A DNA stretch of 10,393 nt, taken from positions 1 through 10,393 of the forward strand of contig JASFBI010000029.1 in the NCBI GenBank assembly GCA_030149595.1. The letters run 5' to 3'. The position numbers and the translations under genes are program-made. The notes below the pieces were generated by a model. That model saw only the letters and a list, made by a program, of their open reading frames with translations, was not told where the DNA came from and made no database searches. The stretch comes from Desulfobacterales bacterium. Its GTDB lineage: Bacteria > Desulfobacterota > Desulfobacteria > Desulfobacterales > DAOWNP01. Position 1 is the stretch's first letter. The number at the start of each line of letters is the position of its first letter. Below, one piece after another: positions 1,197 to 10,295 of this stretch.

Positions 1197-2630
1197 TTAA
1201 GAATTTTCAATCAATCCATGCTTTTTGTCACTTTGGGAGATGTTTTGTAATATCTCACACAACATCTCCTTCAGTAAATTACGATCCGAATCTTTTTTCA
1301 AACTGTCATTACTGCAGACAGAGGAATAAAACCGCTGAAAGTCCCCTCTCTTTTTATTATCCCATTCAGCTGTGAAACCAGCCTTTGCAGCTCCTTTAGT
1401 AAAGGACTCAACAGATGAATAATCACGGCGTCCATGTGTCCAGTTAATAATGTATGAATAGAAAATCAATGCACGATCAACAAGGATATAAATAAACGGA
1501 ATGTTATCCATGGGTCCAATTTGAATCTGGTATCCACCAAGGTTAAGCCCCATCACCTTAGCTCTAATTAAACGTTTTCCTCCCCCAAGTGCAGTCCACC
1601 CAGCACATAGCAGCCCGCCTGCAGCGGTCAAAATACCAAATGTCAAGCCTGCTGCTGCAAGGTCTAATGCAGCACCAACAGTGCCTCCTGTCATAGCAGC
1701 GAGAGTAACAAGCTGCTTTTGGGTCAATCCTAAAACCTGCGATGTCCTTTTGCTAAACAGATCGCAACTCAAAATAGAACAGGCAGGAAGGGGAAAGTTA
1801 AAAATATTATGTTTAAAAAGCTTTCTGATTTTTTGATGAGCCCTTTTTTCTATCTTTTCAATACCTCTGTTATACTCCTTTTCCATCCCATGTTTCAGCT
1901 TTTTTTCATTACTCTTTTTTGTATAATCTTTGGTAATAGAATACTCCAGACACTCCTCCAATAAATCGCAAATAATTTCAGCAGTCTGACTATTACGCTG
2001 TTTCCAGTCCTTTTCAAAGGCTGATATCACCGTATCTATAACTTCTCCCCAATCCTGATCAATTCCCTTCAGATTTTTAAGCAGTTTAATCCTCTCTGCA
2101 TAAACGGCCTTATTGGCATTAAAAATCCGAATCGCATTAAAACTTTTGCGAAATTCCCTCTTCCACTCTTCCAGATATACAGTTTCATCCTCTTTGCAGT
2201 TGATAATCGCCATACGTGGACGACCGGTCAGGCGAAGAATCTCCATCTCCGCAAGATCCATTTTCCGAACAGGTCTTGATCCGTCTACCACATAAATGAT
2301 CCCTGCTCCCCTGTTAATCGGTTCAAGAAGTATTACATCATCTCTGAAATCCGGCTTTTCTGCATGGGTTTCAAAATAACTATGAAGTATGCCATCATCA
2401 GCTTCCTGGTAATTTTTCATCCAGGCCAGCGTTTTTCTCGGGTTTTGAAAACCAGGAGTATCTATAAAACGGATAATCTCCTGCCCGTCAATAACAACCG
2501 GAAAAGTTTGACACTCAACAGTCTCTCCAGGATAAGATGAAACCCTTACACTGTCATCTTCTGACAGTGTAGATACTACCGCAGATTTGCCTTCATTGGG
2601 ATGACCTACAATGGCAAATTCAGGAATCAT
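1197..2630 (-). CDS. TrmE/Era-like GTPase with C-terminal DUF3482 region
   Basis: P-loop GTPase of the translation-factor (TrmE-Era-like) group fused to a region matching DUF3482, a family of unknown function. Numbering from the ATG at 2630 (477 aa): G1/Walker A GHPNEGKS 9-16; G2-like PGET with Thr37; G3 DTPG 57-60; G4 region NCKED 144-148, which departs from NKxD. A charged helical stretch (about 235-275) follows. A Gly/Ala-rich hydrophobic segment (about 307-350) could insert in or lie on the membrane. The family-like stretch with VDRAL and HGRRD is at about 384-403. I chose the ATG at 2630 because GGAG lies 6 nt upstream and it starts 1 nt after the upstream stop codon. An ATG at 2642 (GAGGAG 10 nt upstream) and a TTG at 2651 are alternatives. 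It is translationally coupled to the DUF2868 membrane protein, so the two probably form a complex. Cellular role unknown. Confidence 0.88.
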   Translation of the reverse strand: MIPEFAIVGHPNEGKSAVVSTLSEDDSVRVSSYPGETVECQTFPVVIDGQEIIRFIDTPGFQNPRKTLAWMKNYQEADDGILHSYFETHAEKPDFRDDVILLEPINRGAGIIYVVDGSRPVRKMDLAEMEILRLTGRPRMAIINCKEDETVYLEEWKREFRKSFNAIRIFNANKAVYAERIKLLKNLKGIDQDWGEVIDTVISAFEKDWKQRNSQTAEIICDLLEECLEYSITKDYTKKSNEKKLKHGMEKEYNRGIEKIEKRAHQKIRKLFKHNIFNFPLPACSILSCDLFSKRTSQVLGLTQKQLVTLAAMTGGTVGAALDLAAAGLTFGILTAAGGLLCAGWTALGGGKRLIRAKVMGLNLGGYQIQIGPMDNIPFIYILVDRALIFYSYIINWTHGRRDYSSVESFTKGAAKAGFTAEWDNKKRGDFQRFYSSVCSNDSLKKDSDRNLLKEMLCEILQNISQSDKKHGLIENS

Positions 2631-2631
2631 A

Positions 2632-4239
2632 TTACTCTCCATTGGGTACAAGCTCCTCTATCCCTATGTAGGAATCTCCCAGAGCATTTAGTTTCTGTCT
2701 CCATACTGTTAAGTCTTGTTCTTTCACAGAAGTAAAGACAATGCCCTGTCTGGGCAGCCCGATAAGACCCACCCAGATCATTGAGCTCTTACCCAAAGCC
2801 TTTCTCAAATCACGGATAAAGAGCAGACTTTCTCTTATGGGTGGCTGCCATGCTTCCTGGAGAATTAACAGATTTGTCAGAAGACCCTCCTTATTCATAT
2901 TGGAAAGCTCATGGATAATCCGATTATCCTCCTCCTCCCCTGCATCAAGTCTAAACTTTAGTTGAACTGGATGCCCAAAGATTTTTAAAATAACACTTTC
3001 AAGCTCATCATCTGTGAATGCCTCAAAAATATCATCAGGAACAAGTACAACTATACCTTTTACTTTTAAAACATCCAGCTTGCCTTCTGGTATATCTTCG
3101 ACAGATGTTTTTACACTGTCCCCTTGATGAAAGTTCCCGGAATCTACAAAATTTCCTTCTGTACTAATTAGAGGTGTTCTCATTCTGTTTAGAAGTTTTC
3201 CACAGCTTTTGTGTCTAAAACAAATTTTTGAAAGCACTTTTTTCTGAACAACAATTCCAGCAGCAAGAAGTATCAATCTCGGCAGCAAACCATAAGTCAG
3301 GACAGCAAAACATAAAAAAGGCCACCACGAAACCAGGTCATTGGTTGAAAGATGATATATACCATCTTTTAAAACCATATGACTCCCCTGGATCTGGTCA
3401 AAAGTTGGGTGGCCAAAATCAGCCTTTACCATCCATGCCCAGGGAAGAGAAACAACCTGAACCAGTTTAAATACAGTCTGATCACTTACTTGTACTGTAG
3501 ACTGCCATCCAAAAGCAATATCTGATATTAATACCCTTATAAAGGTGGTCCCCAGAACCCCCAAATTAAACCCGATTCCAAAGATCTGAATTAAAATAAA
3601 TACAGGCCAGTAAAATAGTGAACCGTAGACCTGCCCCTTTCCCCTGATCATACCCATAACTGTCTCAAACCCTGCACGATCTGATACATCAAGATTTTTT
3701 AGTGTATGATGTTTTATTTTTATGATCACTCTGGTCATAAACCCGCTGACCAGAGTGTAGATTATAGAAATCCGAAATGGACATTTTACCACTTTACGGA
3801 CAAGAAATATCACAAGAAGAAACAAAACAGCAAAAAATTGTGCGAAAACAAAAAACATGAGATAGTATGAGACATTAAGAAGCTCCATGCCCCGGTAGTT
3901 CAGAAACGATACAGTCATACCATAGCCTGATAAAAGACCCAAAATCAAAAGGCAGAATCCCATAATACGGCATACCCCATGAAAGGTCTCTCCCGGCAAC
4001 AAAGCACCTGTGGCTCTGTCCTTTTTTTTTATTTTTCTTATCTGTTCCAGCCACACACGGATAGATTTTTTGGGAGTTAAAACGCCATCTTTTTCAAGAG
4101 GTAAAATTTTATTTAAATAGATACCCCTGTCCCTTTTCAACAGGACTTGCCGGGTAGATTCAGACTCCATACCTACATCACTATAAAGAAAATATTCCAA
4201 ATCAATTATATCTTTAATAAGCCAGGTAGTTTTTTTCAT
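2632..4239 (-). CDS. DUF2868 family multi-pass membrane protein
   Basis: Membrane protein of 535 aa that I assign to DUF2868, a family of unknown function usually encoded directly before a GTPase/DUF3482 gene, as here. The N-terminal ~85 residues are hydrophilic. Hydrophobic segments lie at about 91-113, 124-147, 211-240 (possibly two passes) and 303-331. Between the last two is the motif FGWQST (243-248), which I recall as typical of the family. The C-terminal ~200 residues are soluble and include a predicted alpha/beta segment (VKGIVVLVPDDIF) and an acidic stretch (DAGEEED). The start ATG at 4239 has only a weak SD (AAGAA). No convincing promoter is seen in the 222-nt gap upstream (4240-4461), which also follows the mla cluster, so read-through from that cluster is possible. 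Base use looks somewhat less AT-biased than in the mla genes, but I did not compute this. A membrane anchor or partner for the GTPase is the most natural inferred role. Confidence 0.85.
   Translation of the reverse strand: MKKTTWLIKDIIDLEYFLYSDVGMESESTRQVLLKRDRGIYLNKILPLEKDGVLTPKKSIRVWLEQIRKIKKKDRATGALLPGETFHGVCRIMGFCLLILGLLSGYGMTVSFLNYRGMELLNVSYYLMFFVFAQFFAVLFLLVIFLVRKVVKCPFRISIIYTLVSGFMTRVIIKIKHHTLKNLDVSDRAGFETVMGMIRGKGQVYGSLFYWPVFILIQIFGIGFNLGVLGTTFIRVLISDIAFGWQSTVQVSDQTVFKLVQVVSLPWAWMVKADFGHPTFDQIQGSHMVLKDGIYHLSTNDLVSWWPFLCFAVLTYGLLPRLILLAAGIVVQKKVLSKICFRHKSCGKLLNRMRTPLISTEGNFVDSGNFHQGDSVKTSVEDIPEGKLDVLKVKGIVVLVPDDIFEAFTDDELESVILKIFGHPVQLKFRLDAGEEEDNRIIHELSNMNKEGLLTNLLILQEAWQPPIRESLLFIRDLRKALGKSSMIWVGLIGLPRQGIVFTSVKEQDLTVWRQKLNALGDSYIGIEELVPNGE
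2637..2640 (-). promoter_or_regulatory. Shine-Dalgarno site deciding the GTPase start
   Basis: GGAG, 6 nt before the ATG at 2630, lies inside the last codons of the upstream DUF2868 gene, whose TAA (2634-2632) sits between the SD and the ATG. This is the arrangement expected for termination-reinitiation coupling of the two genes. A second SD-like GAGGAG at 2653-2658 could serve the ATG at 2642. Confidence 0.55.
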
Positions 4240-4461: not shown

Positions 4462-5457
4462 TCAACTACTGCAGTAGTAAACTCTTTTATTTTTACGATT
4501 ATCACTTAATATCCGCCCTTTAAATTCAAGGTGATCAAGAGTAAGTCTTATCCAGCCTTCAGCCATTTTATATTTTATCCAGCCCTGACCTTTATATATT
4601 TTTTTGACAATATCACCCACAGATAATGATTTTTGTCTGGAGTACTTAATCACGCTATATACCTGAAGAGTTCTTAATTCTCTCCATCGAATAATCTGTT
4701 TAATTCTTTGCTTGGGCTTTAACACAGGACTTCCATGGGCTGTTAATATTATTTTAAGCCCTGGCAAATTTTTCATATACAAAAGAGATGATAAATATTT
4801 TGTCAGTGAAGACCTTGGAGGCCCAAGCCAGGTAGTGATTGATCTTAATATATTATCACCTGCAAATAAAACTCCGGTTTCCTGATTATATAAACTGATG
4901 TGATCATCACAATGACCCGGAGATGGAAAAACTTTCCAGATTTTATTATTAATACTTATATAGGAATCATCATCTATCATAACATCAGCCTGTTTTAAAA
5001 ATCTGGTGCCATAATTTTTTTCATATAAAACTTCTACTGCAGGTTTGAGCATATTAATCAAGCCATGTTTATAACTCTTAGATTCATCACTGCTTAAAGT
5101 CTCTTCGTATGATTTTCTATACTCTTTTTTTGAAGTAATCAATCTTGACATTGCAGGTGTAAGCAAGACAGATGCTTTCAATTTTTTTTTCAGTTCATAA
5201 AGCCCTGAAAAATGATCAGGATGGGAATGGCTTACCAAAATTTGCGAAATATCAGTTCCCATAGAATGTTTTCGGCAATATGCTCTTATTTTTGATATCT
5301 CCTTCATCAAAAAATTAACAGACCGCCTGTCCCCATAGCCTGCATCAAAAATCATCCCATTGTTTCCGGGTATTATATAGATATTTACCGGAGGTTTTAA
5401 AACACTTATTCCTCCGGTACAGGTAACCATAAAAATCCCTTTGCATATCTGCTGCAT
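4462..5457 (-). CDS. MBL-fold metallo-hydrolase (LACTB2-like), last gene of the mla cluster
   Basis: Metallo-beta-lactamase-fold hydrolase of 331 aa. The zinc-binding signature HSHPDH is at 77-82. Further ligands are His182 (PGHCDDH), Asp201 (FAGDN) and His241 (TAHGSP), so the dinuclear metal site looks complete. The C-terminal ~60-70 residues (about 265-325) resemble the winged-helix tail found in LACTB2-type and related MBL proteins. There is no signal peptide, so a cytoplasmic location is likely. The ATG at 5457 begins 3 nt after the mlaA stop, with AAAGAG a few nt upstream, so it is almost certainly in the same transcript as mlaA. The MBL fold covers ester, thioester and phosphodiester hydrolysis, so the substrate cannot be read from the sequence. 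The operon context makes a role in lipid or envelope metabolism possible, as an inference only. Confidence 0.88.
   Translation of the reverse strand: MQQICKGIFMVTCTGGISVLKPPVNIYIIPGNNGMIFDAGYGDRRSVNFLMKEISKIRAYCRKHSMGTDISQILVSHSHPDHFSGLYELKKKLKASVLLTPAMSRLITSKKEYRKSYEETLSSDESKSYKHGLINMLKPAVEVLYEKNYGTRFLKQADVMIDDDSYISINNKIWKVFPSPGHCDDHISLYNQETGVLFAGDNILRSITTWLGPPRSSLTKYLSSLLYMKNLPGLKIILTAHGSPVLKPKQRIKQIIRWRELRTLQVYSVIKYSRQKSLSVGDIVKKIYKGQGWIKYKMAEGWIRLTLDHLEFKGRILSDNRKNKRVYYCSS
4465..4478. repeat. 14-nt perfect palindrome at the 3' end of the MBL-fold gene
   Basis: ACTACTGCAGTAGT is perfectly self-complementary and covers the last codons before the TGA stop of the MBL-fold gene. It is not followed by a T tract on the minus strand, so it is not a standard terminator. 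It might still stabilise the 3' end of the operon mRNA, or be chance arising from TAC TAC TGC AGT AGT codons. Confidence 0.3.
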
Positions 5458-5460
5458 AAT

Positions 5461-6273
5461 TTACTCTTTATTTCTCTTATCTCTATATTGAACATATGCA
5501 CTGCGAATAGCTTCATATGGTTCAAATGATGACTCTATTAAAGATTCATAATCATCCATTTTAAAGGCTGCCTCATTTAAAAAATACAGACCGGATACAC
5601 CTGCTCTAACTTTTGCAGAATCTGCATATAATACTGGATCAAGGAACATATCAAAAACAGAACCTATAGAGTCCCGCAGTGATGAAGGTCCAAAAAATGG
5701 CCAGACAATATAAAAACCATTACCCATACCATATACAGCAAGGGTTTGTTTCATATTTTCATCATTGATTACAAGCCTCGGATCTTTTTTTGCAGGATCT
5801 AAAAAACCTAAAACCCCTGCTGTCGTATTTAACAAAAAACGTCCAATTTCATTTCCTGCTGAAACAGGTTTTGCCTGTAAAAAGCATGAAACAATCCTTA
5901 CAGGAGCTGACAGATTAGTAAAAAAATTTCTGACAGATTGCCTTGCAGCATTCGGCACAACTGCCTTATATCCTCTGCATACAGGCTTTACCACCCAAAA
6001 AAAAAGTTTATCATTGAAAACAAATATAGTCTTATTATAATAGTATAATGGATCATAGATATATACTGTATTATCCTCTTCTTCCTCTTCCTCATCTAAA
6101 AAATCAAGATTTTCATCTAAAAACTCATCTTCAATCTCTTCCGTATCTACATTTATAACAGTTGGAACTTCAGGCTCTTTTTGAAACCCGCCATTTTTTT
6201 TTACATTTGAAACATGGGTGCATGAGATCATAAACAGACAAAAAACAACTGTTATAAAATTTGTAACCTTCAA
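5461..6273 (-). CDS. mlaA: MlaA (VacJ) family outer-membrane lipoprotein
   Basis: MlaA sits in the outer membrane and removes mislocalised phospholipids from the outer leaflet, handing them to MlaC. The 270-aa product has a lipoprotein signal peptide with the lipobox MISC (Cys18; Met at -3 is unusual). A long acidic linker (about 42-67, including a run of six Glu) follows. The MlaA domain starts with YDPLYYYNKTIFVFND (73-88), and family features continue through NFFTNLSAPV (116-125), GRFLLNTTAGVLGFLDPA (144-161) and WPFFGPSSLRD (191-201). The start codon is TTG at 6273: AGGA lies 8 nt upstream, an in-frame TAA lies 21 nt upstream, and the next Met is inside the signal peptide. The protein is slightly longer than E. 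coli MlaA because of the linker. A gap of 184 nt separates it from mlaC, and the MBL-fold gene follows after 3 nt. Confidence 0.95.
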   Translation of the reverse strand: MKVTNFITVVFCLFMISCTHVSNVKKNGGFQKEPEVPTVINVDTEEIEDEFLDENLDFLDEEEEEEDNTVYIYDPLYYYNKTIFVFNDKLFFWVVKPVCRGYKAVVPNAARQSVRNFFTNLSAPVRIVSCFLQAKPVSAGNEIGRFLLNTTAGVLGFLDPAKKDPRLVINDENMKQTLAVYGMGNGFYIVWPFFGPSSLRDSIGSVFDMFLDPVLYADSAKVRAGVSGLYFLNEAAFKMDDYESLIESSFEPYEAIRSAYVQYRDKRNKE

Positions 6274-6457: not shown

Positions 6458-7081
6458 CTATTTTTCAGCTTCTTTTTTATCAAAAACATCTTCTACTCTC
6501 TTTTTTTTCAATCTTTCTATTAACTGAGCAGGAGACTCTTTAAAAAGAATCTTGTTAAACTGGGTTCTATAATTTTTAACCAGGCTGACACCTTCAATAT
6601 TAACATCATAAATTCTCCACTTTTTTTTGCGTAAAATCATGCGATAATTTATATCAACCACAGTTGAATTTCTTGGAATTACAGTTTTTACAATTGCTTT
6701 GGACGCACTCAGTTTTTCCTGACTTAAATATTGAACAACCTCTCCTTTATAAGCATCCTTGATTTTATCATAGTAAGTGGATGATAAAAAATCAGCAAAA
6801 ACCATAGAGAACTCCTTGCGCTCTTTTGGTAAAAAACGCCTCCAGTTTCTTGCTAAAACTCTTTTTGAGACCTCAGTAAAATCAAACACTCTTTTAGATA
6901 TTTTAATTACTTTTTTTTTATATATCTGATCTTTGTCAGGATTTTTTTTAAAATCAGGCTCTTCAAAAACACTTACTATTTCATTAATAGGACCTTTAAG
7001 AGCATCCATGGGCATCTGTTCGGCCATTACAAAAGAGCAATAAAAAAGACAGGTAAATAATAAAATTATAACCTTTTTCAT
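6458..7081 (-). CDS. mlaC: MlaC family periplasmic phospholipid-binding protein
   Basis: MlaC carries phospholipid between MlaA at the outer membrane and the MlaFED complex at the inner membrane. The 207-aa product has a clear Sec signal peptide (MKKVIILLF...) with probable cleavage after Ala20 (VMA|EQ). The mature part follows the family pattern: an N-terminal helix with PINEIVSVF, then FDFTEVSKRVLARNWRRFLPKERKEF (about 66-91), YYDKIKDAY, the beta-sheet core with IPRNSTVVDINYRM, and KKWRIYDVNIEGVSLVKNYRTQF near 153-175. Length matches E. coli MlaC (about 211 aa). The ATG at 7081 has a strong SD (GGGGGAG, 8 nt away). It lies 43 nt after mlaD. Known regions are intact and I see nothing degenerate. 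Confidence 0.95.
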   Translation of the reverse strand: MKKVIILLFTCLFYCSFVMAEQMPMDALKGPINEIVSVFEEPDFKKNPDKDQIYKKKVIKISKRVFDFTEVSKRVLARNWRRFLPKERKEFSMVFADFLSSTYYDKIKDAYKGEVVQYLSQEKLSASKAIVKTVIPRNSTVVDINYRMILRKKKWRIYDVNIEGVSLVKNYRTQFNKILFKESPAQLIERLKKKRVEDVFDKKEAEK

Positions 7082-7124: not shown

Positions 7125-7571
7125 TCATAGACTTCCAAAAACATACTTGCTTATCAACTCTTCAATATCTATGGAAGACTCTGTTTCTGTTATTAAATCC
7201 CCATTTTTCAAGATATCATCTGAGCCTCCTGGAATAAGCTGAATATATTTATCACCTATAAGCCCTGATGTTTTAACAGATGCTATAACATCATCAGTTA
7301 AAACAAATTGCTTTTCTATATCCATTTCAACCAAAGCAATCTGAAGTTCCTGACTCAAAATAATGGAGCTGACCTTACCTACTGCCACTCCTGCTATTTC
7401 AACATAAGCACCGTTTTTTAAACCGGCAACTGATTCAAACCTGGCGGTTACTGTATAATAATCATCACTAAATATCTCAATCCTGCCAAGCTTTATTGTA
7501 AGATACCCAACACATAAGACTCCAATAAAAACAAAGATACCCACCGCCATTTCTATCGACGACTTTTTCAT
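7125..7571 (-). CDS. mlaD: MlaD family MCE-domain protein
   Basis: Inner-membrane-anchored MCE protein that forms a hexameric ring on the periplasmic side of the MlaFE transporter and passes phospholipid through its pore. The 148 aa comprise a single N-terminal membrane segment (about 7-27), then one MCE domain (about 38-117) with the family stretches FESVAGLKNGAYVEIAGVAVGKV and SVKTSGLIGDKYIQLIPGG, then a short C-terminal tail ending ELISKYVFG. It is shorter than E. coli MlaD (about 183 aa), with most of the C-terminal tail missing. The ATG at 7571 has a near-perfect SD (GGAGGG), so translation is probably strong, in keeping with a six-copy subunit. It lies 77 nt after mlaF with no other gene in the gap. 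Confidence 0.95.
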   Translation of the reverse strand: MKKSSIEMAVGIFVFIGVLCVGYLTIKLGRIEIFSDDYYTVTARFESVAGLKNGAYVEIAGVAVGKVSSIILSQELQIALVEMDIEKQFVLTDDVIASVKTSGLIGDKYIQLIPGGSDDILKNGDLITETESSIDIEELISKYVFGSL

Positions 7572-7648: not shown

Positions 7649-8860
7649 TCAACAAAGATTAAATTGACTGTCCATATTTTCCCAGCCAACACCGCCTTCA
7701 ATAATTTCATCTATAATCATTCCTGAATTAATCTCAATAACTTTACCGCTCATCTGGAGACAAAAACCATAATCCGGCAAAATATTTTTTACACCAGATT
7801 CTGAAAATATTTTTACAAGCTTTGAAAAAACCTTTTTAGCCTCTTTTATATTAGTATGTGCAAGAATCAACAACACAGAATCCTTTGAATTCCGGCAACT
7901 GCAATCATTTATACGTAAATACTTTTCCACCTGAACAGAAATATGTTTTAAGGCTGTCTGACCGGCTGTATAACCAAAATTACTATTTATTTCATCAAAG
8001 TTTTTTACTGTAAACATAATTAAAGAAAAGGGTATACCATGCCGGTCTAACCTCTTTTTTTCCTCATGAATACGCTTGTTTCCTATGGAATGCCCGACCA
8101 GACCTGTCATTCCATCAGGTTTTTTCTGACTTCCTGTAATAAAATCCAGTATCTGTTCATCTTCACTTTTTAAAATTTCTTTATAACTTCCCTGGAAAAT
8201 AATTTTACCGGAATCAAGCATAATAATTCTCTGGGAAATATAAAAAACATCAGGAATCTCATGGCTTACCAGTACACCTGTAAAACCAAGTCTTGTCTGA
8301 TAATCGGAAATCATACTATGAACTGAATTTCTTCTTATGGGATCTAAACCTGTAGTTGGTTCATCAAATAATATAATTTCAGGATCTGTTACCAAAGCCC
8401 TTGCCAGTGCTACTCTTTTTTTCATTCCACCTGAAAGCTGTGCAGGATATTTATCATCAATTCCATAGAGATCCAACTGATTCATTCTTTCTCTGACCTT
8501 CTGTTTTATTTTATTTTTTGGAATTTTTGATTTTTCAACCAAAGGAAGAGAAATATTTTCAATAACAGTCATTGAATCAAAAAGTGCTGTTGATTGAAAC
8601 ATATAGCTGATCTTATTTTTTATTTTTGAAATTTCTGCCTTTTTCATTTTTTTAATGGATTTTCCCTGAAACAGTATATCTCCTCCATCAGGTATCATCA
8701 ACCCGATAATATGCTTTAATAAAACACTTTTACCTATCCCGCTTTTTCCAATTATACTTGTTATTTCACCTGGATAGATATTAAACGTCACACCCTTTAA
8801 AACTTCGTTATTATCAAACCCTTTATATATATCTACAAACTCAATCAACGGTGCCAGCAT
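7649..8860 (-). CDS. mlaF: MlaF ABC ATPase fused to a degenerate GGDEF-like domain
   Basis: ATPase of the Mla phospholipid transporter, 403 aa against about 269 in E. coli. ABC domain: Walker A GKSGIGKS 38-45, Q-loop Gln89, signature LSGGM 142-146, Walker B ILFDEP 163-168 with Glu167, H-loop His200. All motifs look active. From about 248 a second domain follows the GGDEF pattern: DGMTGL at 249-254, a FSLIMFTVKNFDEIN stretch at 278-292, and RNSKDSVLLIL at 323-333. Catalytic positions are lost (Thr284 for the first metal Asp, SKDSV at 325-329 for GGDEF, Gln301 for a substrate-binding Asp). RIND at 316-319 matches the RxxD inhibitory-site motif, 9 residues before the degenerate signature as in PleD. 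So it is probably not a cyclase but possibly a c-di-GMP receptor. The C-terminal third of the GGDEF fold is poorly conserved. The ATG at 8860 has AGGA 5 nt upstream, overlapping the mlaE stop. The frame is continuous, so the fusion is not an artefact of the start choice. Confidence 0.93.
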   Translation of the reverse strand: MLAPLIEFVDIYKGFDNNEVLKGVTFNIYPGEITSIIGKSGIGKSVLLKHIIGLMIPDGGDILFQGKSIKKMKKAEISKIKNKISYMFQSTALFDSMTVIENISLPLVEKSKIPKNKIKQKVRERMNQLDLYGIDDKYPAQLSGGMKKRVALARALVTDPEIILFDEPTTGLDPIRRNSVHSMISDYQTRLGFTGVLVSHEIPDVFYISQRIIMLDSGKIIFQGSYKEILKSEDEQILDFITGSQKKPDGMTGLVGHSIGNKRIHEEKKRLDRHGIPFSLIMFTVKNFDEINSNFGYTAGQTALKHISVQVEKYLRINDCSCRNSKDSVLLILAHTNIKEAKKVFSKLVKIFSESGVKNILPDYGFCLQMSGKVIEINSGMIIDEIIEGGVGWENMDSQFNLC

Positions 8861-8867
8861 TTTATTC

Positions 8868-9671
8868 CTATATTAAAAAAGAGGTTAATACATAATCCAC
8901 CACAAGGATAAAAACAGAAGACAAAACAACAGCTGATGTTGTTGCAGTACTGACTCCCTTTGCTCCAAATCCATCAGAGCTTTTATGAACATAAAAACCT
9001 TTGTAACAACTTATCACAGTGAGAATTATCCCAAAAACAAAAGCCTTATAAAAACCTCCTGTTACATCACAAAGCATTACATTTGACTCCATGCGTGAAA
9101 AAAAAATACCGGAACTAACACCCAGTAAAACCGATCCTGTCAAATACCCCCCTAAAATTCCCATAACATCAAACAGTGCTGTCAATAGAGGCATACTAAG
9201 CATAGCTGCTGCAAGCTTGGGACTTACAAGAAAACGAATGGGATCTATATCCATTGTCTCCAAGGCATCAATTTGTTCTGAAATCCTCATTATGCCAATC
9301 TCAGCGGCTATGGCTGACCCGGCTCTCCCCACAACCATTATAGCCGCAAGAACAGGCCCAAGCTCCCTTATTATAGACAGGGCTACAACAGCACCAAGCG
9401 TCCCCTCTGCTCCAAATTTAACCAGAGAATAATAACCCTGCAATCCTAAAACCATGCCTGTAAAAGTCCCTGTAAGCCCGACAATAACAACAGACTTTAC
9501 CCCTATAAAATATATTTGATTAACTATTTTAGAAATTTGTAGAGGAAAAGAAAAAATATGCACAAAAGCTTTATAAAAAAACACAAAAACAGCCCCAGCT
9601 TCTCTTATAAGGGATATTACAAATCGTCCTGTCATAGAAATATAAGTAAAAACATCAGTATTTATTCTCAA
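8868..9671 (-). CDS. mlaE: MlaE family ABC permease
   Basis: Integral inner-membrane permease of the Mla phospholipid transporter; two copies pair with MlaF and hold the MlaD ring. The 267 aa match the family length. An amphipathic N-terminal helix (about 25-50) is followed by about five hydrophobic segments. The conserved core IRELGPVLAA (101-110), VGRAGSAIAAEIG (114-126) and ISEQIDALETM (130-140) contains the cytoplasmic coupling helix that contacts MlaF. The start is TTG at 9671: AAGG lies 8 nt upstream, the upstream frame reaches a TAA without any ATG or GTG, and the next Met (residue 13) has no SD. It is first in the cluster, with mlaF starting 7 nt after its stop. Sequence is normal for the family. 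Confidence 0.95.
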   Translation of the reverse strand: MRINTDVFTYISMTGRFVISLIREAGAVFVFFYKAFVHIFSFPLQISKIVNQIYFIGVKSVVIVGLTGTFTGMVLGLQGYYSLVKFGAEGTLGAVVALSIIRELGPVLAAIMVVGRAGSAIAAEIGIMRISEQIDALETMDIDPIRFLVSPKLAAAMLSMPLLTALFDVMGILGGYLTGSVLLGVSSGIFFSRMESNVMLCDVTGGFYKAFVFGIILTVISCYKGFYVHKSSDGFGAKGVSTATTSAVVLSSVFILVVDYVLTSFLI

Positions 9672-9878: not shown

Positions 9879-10295
9879 ATGGCTCATCTAATTAAAAGAA
9901 TTTATAAATTAATACAAACAAATACTGATTTTTACAAAAACAAAACCCCTCTTTTCAATAAAACAGAAAACAAAACCTCCTCTTTTTATAAAGAAAAAAA
10001 AGAGGATTATAAAAACATTTTTTCCGAAAATAAAAAAGAGCCTGTTAACAATGTTTTTCTTCCTGACAGTATTATAGCTGATCTTAATATCTTTGGACTA
10101 TCTCCTCCGGTTACAATGGAAACAATAAAAAAAGCACGAAACAGGGAAATTAAAAAATATCACAGCGATAAATTTTTACATGATCAACAAAAACTAATAG
10201 TCTCAAAGCAGATCATGCAGATCTATAATGCAGCTTTTAGCCGCCTCTCTATTTATTTTGATAAAAATAGCCACCAGACTGCTGCAAAACATTAA
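9879..10295 (+). CDS. small protein with C-terminal J-like domain (HSD variant)
   Basis: 138-aa protein. The N-terminal ~60 residues are Lys/Asn/Thr-rich, low in complexity and probably disordered. The C-terminal part (about 66-127) resembles a DnaJ J-domain: LNIFGLSPPVTMETIKKA fits helix I and the start of helix II, REIKKYHSDKF (89-99) fits the end of helix II plus the loop, and a helix III-like QIMQIYNAAFSRL (111-123) follows. The HPD tripeptide needed to stimulate DnaK reads His95-Ser96-Asp97, so Hsp70 activation may be weak or absent. There is no Gly/Phe or zinc-finger region. The start ATG at 9879 has no clear SD, but a good promoter lies about 45 nt upstream. It is transcribed divergently from the mla operon. 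Expression is likely; function is unknown. A J-like protein of unknown partner is the safest label. Confidence 0.7.
   Translation: MAHLIKRIYKLIQTNTDFYKNKTPLFNKTENKTSSFYKEKKEDYKNIFSENKKEPVNNVFLPDSIIADLNIFGLSPPVTMETIKKARNREIKKYHSDKFLHDQQKLIVSKQIMQIYNAAFSRLSIYFDKNSHQTAAKH

Follow-up and report, generated by a model that had tools for sequence, protein, structure and literature searches.

Post-translational control of the outer-membrane lipid transporter Mla is suspected, in E. coli, to lie with MlaB and with the tail of the ATPase MlaF. The locus analysed here raises the question of what it means for that tail to be a domain of a nucleotide-signalling fold. The window, that is, the whole stretch of 10,393 nt analysed from a Desulfobacterales bacterium (assembly GCA_030149595.1, contig JASFBI010000029.1), carries at 7649..8860 on the minus strand a gene whose product, referred to here as the window protein, joins a MlaF ATPase to a GGDEF-fold domain. 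Is this domain still an enzyme, is it a receptor for c-di-GMP, or has it become a working part of the ATPase itself?

A GGDEF-fold tail on the MlaF ATPase

The window protein (403 aa) is read from a single uninterrupted ATG frame. Its ATPase part (residues 1-240; 8141..8860, minus strand) matches ABC_tran over residues 21-170 (1.7e-36), and it is followed by a degenerate GGDEF-fold domain (residues 249-403; 7652..8116, minus strand) that PF00990 matches at residues 249-352 (2.7e-13) with 50.4 bits against a cut-off of 23.8, which places the tail within the GGDEF fold. The in-frame passage from an ABC ATPase into a domain with the GGDEF order of motifs, as described in the sequence-only reading, is confirmed by the one frame and by both Pfam domains. 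Compared with solved structures, the tail finds its matches in diguanylate cyclases, 3ign being the best (1.7e-9) and PleD reaching 8e-5, and it weakly matches the ammonium transporter-GGDEF structures 8qpf and 8qj3. Window residues 249-348 align with residues 292-391 of the PleD chains 9g85 and 2wb4 or 291-390 of 1w25 and 9g86, and the aligned ranges, equal in length on both sides, agree with the ungapped offset of 43 proposed earlier. The fold looks complete, judging from four other fusion members scanned, in which the PF00990 match runs from model position 2 or 3 to 147-150 of 161; in member L079 the model scores 74.8 bits.

The ATPase part looks intact. The Walker A glycines G38, G41 and G43, the signature S143-G-G-M146 and the switch His200 are invariant in 120 homologues, and K44 and S45 are kept in at least 90% of them. 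Residues 3-245 of the window protein correspond to 6-248 in E. coli MlaF (6xbd). The best NCBIfam model is the MlaF equivalog NF008809 (1.2e-56), whose cut-off of 441 bits the protein does not reach (192 bits). The protein is assigned to MlaF as an Mla-type ABC ATPase with the SGGM signature, encoded in one operon with mlaE, D and C. The operon lies on the minus strand in the order mlaE-mlaF-mlaD-mlaC-mlaA and comprises the permease gene mlaE (8868..9671; PF02405, 1.8e-79), separated from mlaF by a gap of 7 bases, a short mlaD with a single MCE domain (7125..7571; PF02470, 6.6e-21; TIGR04430 above cut-off), mlaC (6458..7081; PF05494, 4.7e-39) and the lipoprotein gene mlaA (5461..6273; PF04333, 6.6e-64). 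The nearest named relative of the window protein comes from a Desulfobacteraceae metagenome bin, with 88% identity in the tail.

The residues at the PleD-equivalent positions are all as read earlier from the sequence: Thr284, Asn292, Gln301, Arg316, Asp319, Ser325-Lys-Asp-Ser-Val329 and Lys347. Thr284 stands in the place of PleD D327, which we take to be a metal ligand, Gln301 in that of D344, presumably guanine-binding, and the alignment puts SKDSV (residues 325-329; 7874..7888, minus strand), where the family consensus is GLNKI, at the position that we take to be occupied by GGEEF in PleD. The earlier claim that the catalytic and metal-binding positions are lost is correct for the equivalents of D327, D344, the second glycine (G369) and E371, all of which are replaced; it fails for E370, the third letter of GGDEF, with which Asp327 of the window protein aligns, so that an acid is retained at one of the two metal-ligand positions. 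The GG(D/E)EF motif occurs in none of 216 aligned fusion rows (repeat fetches of the same genes included) and in none of the 78 fusions found in a sample of the order. The window protein thus lacks both this motif and the metal and guanine ligands of an active diguanylate cyclase, and by these standard residues its tail is enzymatically dead. Chance is ruled out as the source of the pattern by its recurrence in the 216 rows. Moreover, among the 120 nearest homologues the GGDEF positions settle on the consensus GLNKI, which differs from plain drift; the window lineage is without this and other family hallmarks, namely Cys321, Cys345 and Gly373.

A sample of 194 genomes from the order, the window's genome and its congener among them, yields the fusion in 74, as 78 matches at E 1e-38 or better to a tail profile that was built from 30 group A members and favours that group. 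All of these matches except two lie in frames of at least 380 aa (76/78), and the remaining two reach contig ends. A homology search with the tail alone, which needs shared five-letter words, returned only 2 proteins; a full-length search scored the 8000 candidates sharing most words, and the best 120 of these all combine ABC and GGDEF domains in 402-414 aa. The fusions fall into two groups defined by Asp319, so that its presence in 89 of 89 representatives of group A and 0 of 14 of group B, and its lack of change on the tree, hold by construction; the 120 nearest homologues and the 78 order-sample fusions are free tests of this residue. Group B fusions occur in further families of the phylum, and there too the GGDEF positions are lost. 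Within the one order the fusion is found in about thirty family-level groups, and it also occurs outside that order; a literature search limited to titles and the openings of abstracts found no description of a fusion between MlaF, or an ABC ATPase, and GGDEF. In these relatives of sulfate-reducing bacteria it is a widespread protein architecture, apparently of single origin, that we did not find described.

On a tree built by a quick method from 77 rows of the ATPase part only, one branch with an SH-aLRT support of 100 separates 29 unfused from 48 fused rows (33 of group A, 15 of group B). Group B forms one clade (98) on this tree, independently of how the groups were defined, and it apparently lies inside group A, in a placing without firm support. 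The simplest history to be drawn from this one gene tree is a single fusion event, with an RxxD motif probably present from the beginning.

The place of the tail and its proposed role

The position of the domain on the ATPase offers a hint of its role. The GGDEF fold is known to pair. While the 29 unfused MlaF proteins examined end 3-34 residues past the ATPase, in fused MlaF proteins the GGDEF domain follows directly; the alignment with E. coli MlaF reaches residue 248 of its 269, and the GGDEF match of the window protein starts at 249. Since the alignment stops there and the fused ATPases continue directly into the domain, the only counterpart of the C-terminal extension of E. coli MlaF is the GGDEF domain. 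According to the passages available of the study of that extension (PMC7367683), its roughly 25 residues clasp the neighbouring MlaF, its truncation abolishes MlaF function, and a GCN4 dimerisation domain put in its place largely restores function. Dimerisation or regulation is therefore the likeliest role of the tail, because a fold that pairs stands where a pairing device is needed; we infer that the tail dimerises, on the strength of what GGDEF domains do in general and not of these particular sequences, and that it affects the ATPase.

The main reading, to which we give a probability of about one half, is that an old GGDEF fusion serves as a dead C-terminal dimerisation or regulatory module of MlaF, to which c-di-GMP perhaps binds in members with RxxD. 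A GGDEF domain would have been joined once, long ago, to the end of MlaF, where the E. coli protein has its dimerising extension, would have lost cyclase activity and would have been kept as a module that pairs two ATPase subunits. Such pairing could set the assembly or the ATPase activity of the MlaFED complex, and the tail would then take over the function of the E. coli extension, and perhaps that of MlaB as well. Where a member, such as the window protein, has RxxD together with a basic amino acid at 347, the I-site may be a binding place for c-di-GMP, which could then cross-link the paired tails or shift them; this would make lipid transport responsive to c-di-GMP; in members without these residues, the module would have to work without c-di-GMP. 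Given that the window lineage has lost several hallmarks, features of the family at large may not hold for the window protein.

It is worth setting this architecture beside known systems. The E. coli MlaFEDB complex has the same kind of ATPase, the partners mlaE, D, C and A, and a MlaF whose C terminus serves for pairing; in contrast, the fusion has a GGDEF fold in place of the tail of about 25 residues, and the surroundings of its operon yielded no STAS gene. OpuCA is an ABC ATPase with C-terminal CBS domains that answer to c-di-AMP, and thus likewise has a regulatory domain fused behind the ATPase. MetN shares this layout, as passages of one paper state (PMC7367683). The present fusion differs from both in that its tail is a GGDEF fold and sits on a lipid transporter. 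In the ammonium transporter-GGDEF proteins (8qpf, 8qj3) the same fold is fused to a transport protein; in that fusion the transporter presumably drives a cyclase that is active, whereas the tail here is a dead domain and is joined to an ATPase. A nucleotide-signalling fold was placed at the C terminus of MlaF, apparently once, and kept, and control of lipid transport through this C terminus, with or without c-di-GMP, is thereby made directly testable.

The further suggestion that the GGDEF domain replaces MlaB finds no real support. A STAS (MlaB-type) match was found near the fused operon in none of 46 genomes (nearness was judged by eye, and some operons lie near contig ends), but such matches are also missing near 16 of 18 unfused operons, and in the other two genomes the STAS match lies about 1 kb from mlaE. 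These two loci (L139 in G264 and L140 in G229) belong to one family and combine an unfused MlaF with STAS about 1 kb from mlaE, as in E. coli. The window MlaF shows neither the E. coli-type C-terminal extension nor the MlaB partner that goes with it. MlaB is sparsely distributed in diderms, as far as the passages available of a Veillonella paper go (PMC10665443).

The I-site, the cysteines and competing explanations

The strongest competitor is that the dead tail is a c-di-GMP receptor whose main function is to gate the MlaF ATPase through the I-site, and we regard it as possible and on balance doubtful. The window protein has RIND at residues 316-319 (7904..7915, minus strand), an RxxD motif at the exact I-site position of the PleD alignment, as had been recognised earlier. 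In an I-site of the PleD type, RxxD is complemented by a basic residue at the position of 347, and 79 of the 89 representatives of group A have Lys or Arg there, more often with Arg316 (67/72) than without it (12/17; Fisher p 0.02 in these 89). The window protein and its congener L105 share Arg316, as do 107 of the 120 nearest homologues. The host also has a c-di-GMP network, with 6 other GGDEF matches and 7 PilZ matches in the same genome (74% complete). There is precedent as well for a dead GGDEF domain acting as a receptor, in line with what had been said, in that BcsE and PelD bind c-di-GMP via RxxD, according to passages of one paper (PMC7439463). Most group A members resemble these two proteins in having a dead GGDEF domain with RxxD; they differ in that the domain sits on an ABC ATPase and in that RxxD is not a family-wide feature.

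It is the behaviour of the motif across the family that speaks against the receptor as a general function. The expectation that RxxD would be conserved among fused orthologues is borne out for Asp319, present in all of the 120 nearest homologues and in 78 of the 78 order-sample fusions, and fails for Arg316, which is kept in only 51 of the 78 (27 have lost it, with Tyr in 14) and is absent in group B. There, all 14 representatives are without Arg316 and RxxD, with local sequences such as GGFSTR or AARFG. In the order sample, Cys321 ranks first and Asp319 second in conservation among 163 tail positions, and Arg316 42nd; among the 89 group A representatives (less than 75% identity), 72 have this arginine, which there comes 61st. 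On the tree Arg316 changes at least 11 times, as against twice for Arg323 and four times for Cys321. Further, the order sample shows no association of Arg316 with a basic 347 (p 0.56). Among the loci fetched, all 16 GGDEF domains with intact motifs have RxxD, a set that is small and biased to close matches of the GGDEF profile; RxxD is for this reason probably an inherited default state. The earlier idea that RxxD had been specially kept while the rest of the domain drifted is not supported, in view of the loss of Arg316 in the order sample and in group B, the default status of the motif and the GLNKI consensus. In our reading, the arginine of RxxD is slowly being lost, and the aspartate, which belongs to a D-x-C-x-R turn, would be held for another reason. 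The slow loss of Arg316 lowers the receptor reading for the family and leaves c-di-GMP gating of lipid transport possible in the members that bear RxxD, the window protein included. A version for much of the order, in which paired dead GGDEF tails would bind c-di-GMP at their I-sites, lock the ATPase pair and switch Mla transport with the sessile or motile state, is a tentative proposal with the odds clearly against it.

The conserved cysteines suggest another device, a redox or metal switch formed by Cys 321, 345, 367 and 403 that would set MlaF activity in these anaerobes. Cys321 is found in 74 and Cys345 in 66 of the 78 order-sample members. Cys367 (7760..7762, minus strand) is kept in both groups (76/89 of A, 13/14 of B; 61/78 in the order sample), as is Cys403 (7652..7654, minus strand), the last residue of the protein (74/89 of A, 14/14 of B; 43/78). 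The latter two go together, with a Fisher p of 0.0009 in the 89 group A representatives; for the order sample the value is 2.9e-6, or 2.5e-8 when Cys400 is accepted in place of 403. All these values ignore relatedness; 16 of 17 order members without Cys367 are also without Cys403. A test of cysteine co-evolution on independent pairs found only 1-4 pairs and has no power. The window protein keeps Cys367 and Cys403 but has neither Cys321 nor Cys345, and no known metal motif is recognised, all of which makes such a switch unlikely. In some members in which Cys403 is missing, for instance L106, L182 and L189, a cysteine stands at position 400.

Could the tail instead be a passive remnant, a functionless fused domain that persists only since its loss would unfold the protein? 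The loss of catalysis would fit such a history, and so would the drift of Arg316 and, within the window lineage, of the GGDEF positions. Against it, dN/dS between the window protein and that of congener L105 is 0.139 for residues 241-403 and 0.147 for residues 1-240, so that purifying selection constrains the tail no less than the ATPase, and does so even in a lineage that has lost several hallmarks. Moreover, residues of the family are held across the order (Asp319 in 78, Cys321 in 74 and Arg323 in 73 of 78), and no unfused row falls inside the fused clade of 48, although a lost tail is conceivable among the 120 order genomes without a match. A mere remnant is accordingly very improbable.

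An active diguanylate cyclase driven by the transporter, for which the GGDEF fold, the Asp at the third motif position (15 of the 78 order-sample fusions, window and congener counted) and the name diguanylate cyclase on some database records could be invoked, can practically be dismissed, given that GG(D/E)EF occurs in none of the fusions examined, that the equivalents of D327, G369, E371 and D344 are replaced and that the C-terminal stretch, which in PleD bears a phosphate-binding Lys/Arg, looks shortened. The finding corrects records that call such fusion proteins diguanylate cyclase, as on those of Desulfonema ishimotonii and a Thermodesulfatator.

Related loci and neighbouring genes

Several observations on related loci may be added. 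One genome (L103, G324) has two fusions: its mlaE-F-D-C-A operon includes a MlaF fusion of group B, and a MlaF fusion of group A follows immediately downstream in the same orientation. In the phylum, many unfused MlaF genes (L160-L162, L164-L167, L171 and L176) adjoin a long MlaD, with stop-to-stop frames of 322-642 aa; unlike these, the fusions are found with a short MlaD.

In the window itself, a gene of the metallo-beta-lactamase fold (4462-5457) lies directly behind mlaA, and among 40 fused loci annotated, which differ in reach, it recurs only in the congener L105. Further along (1197-4239, minus strand), DUF2868 and DUF3482/GTPase genes, neither with a known function, overlap by 20 bases. 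On the plus strand at 9879-10295 lies an ORF of 138 aa without a Pfam match; it has a counterpart in congener L105, and by eye its C-terminal half resembles a J domain, with HSD in place of HPD.
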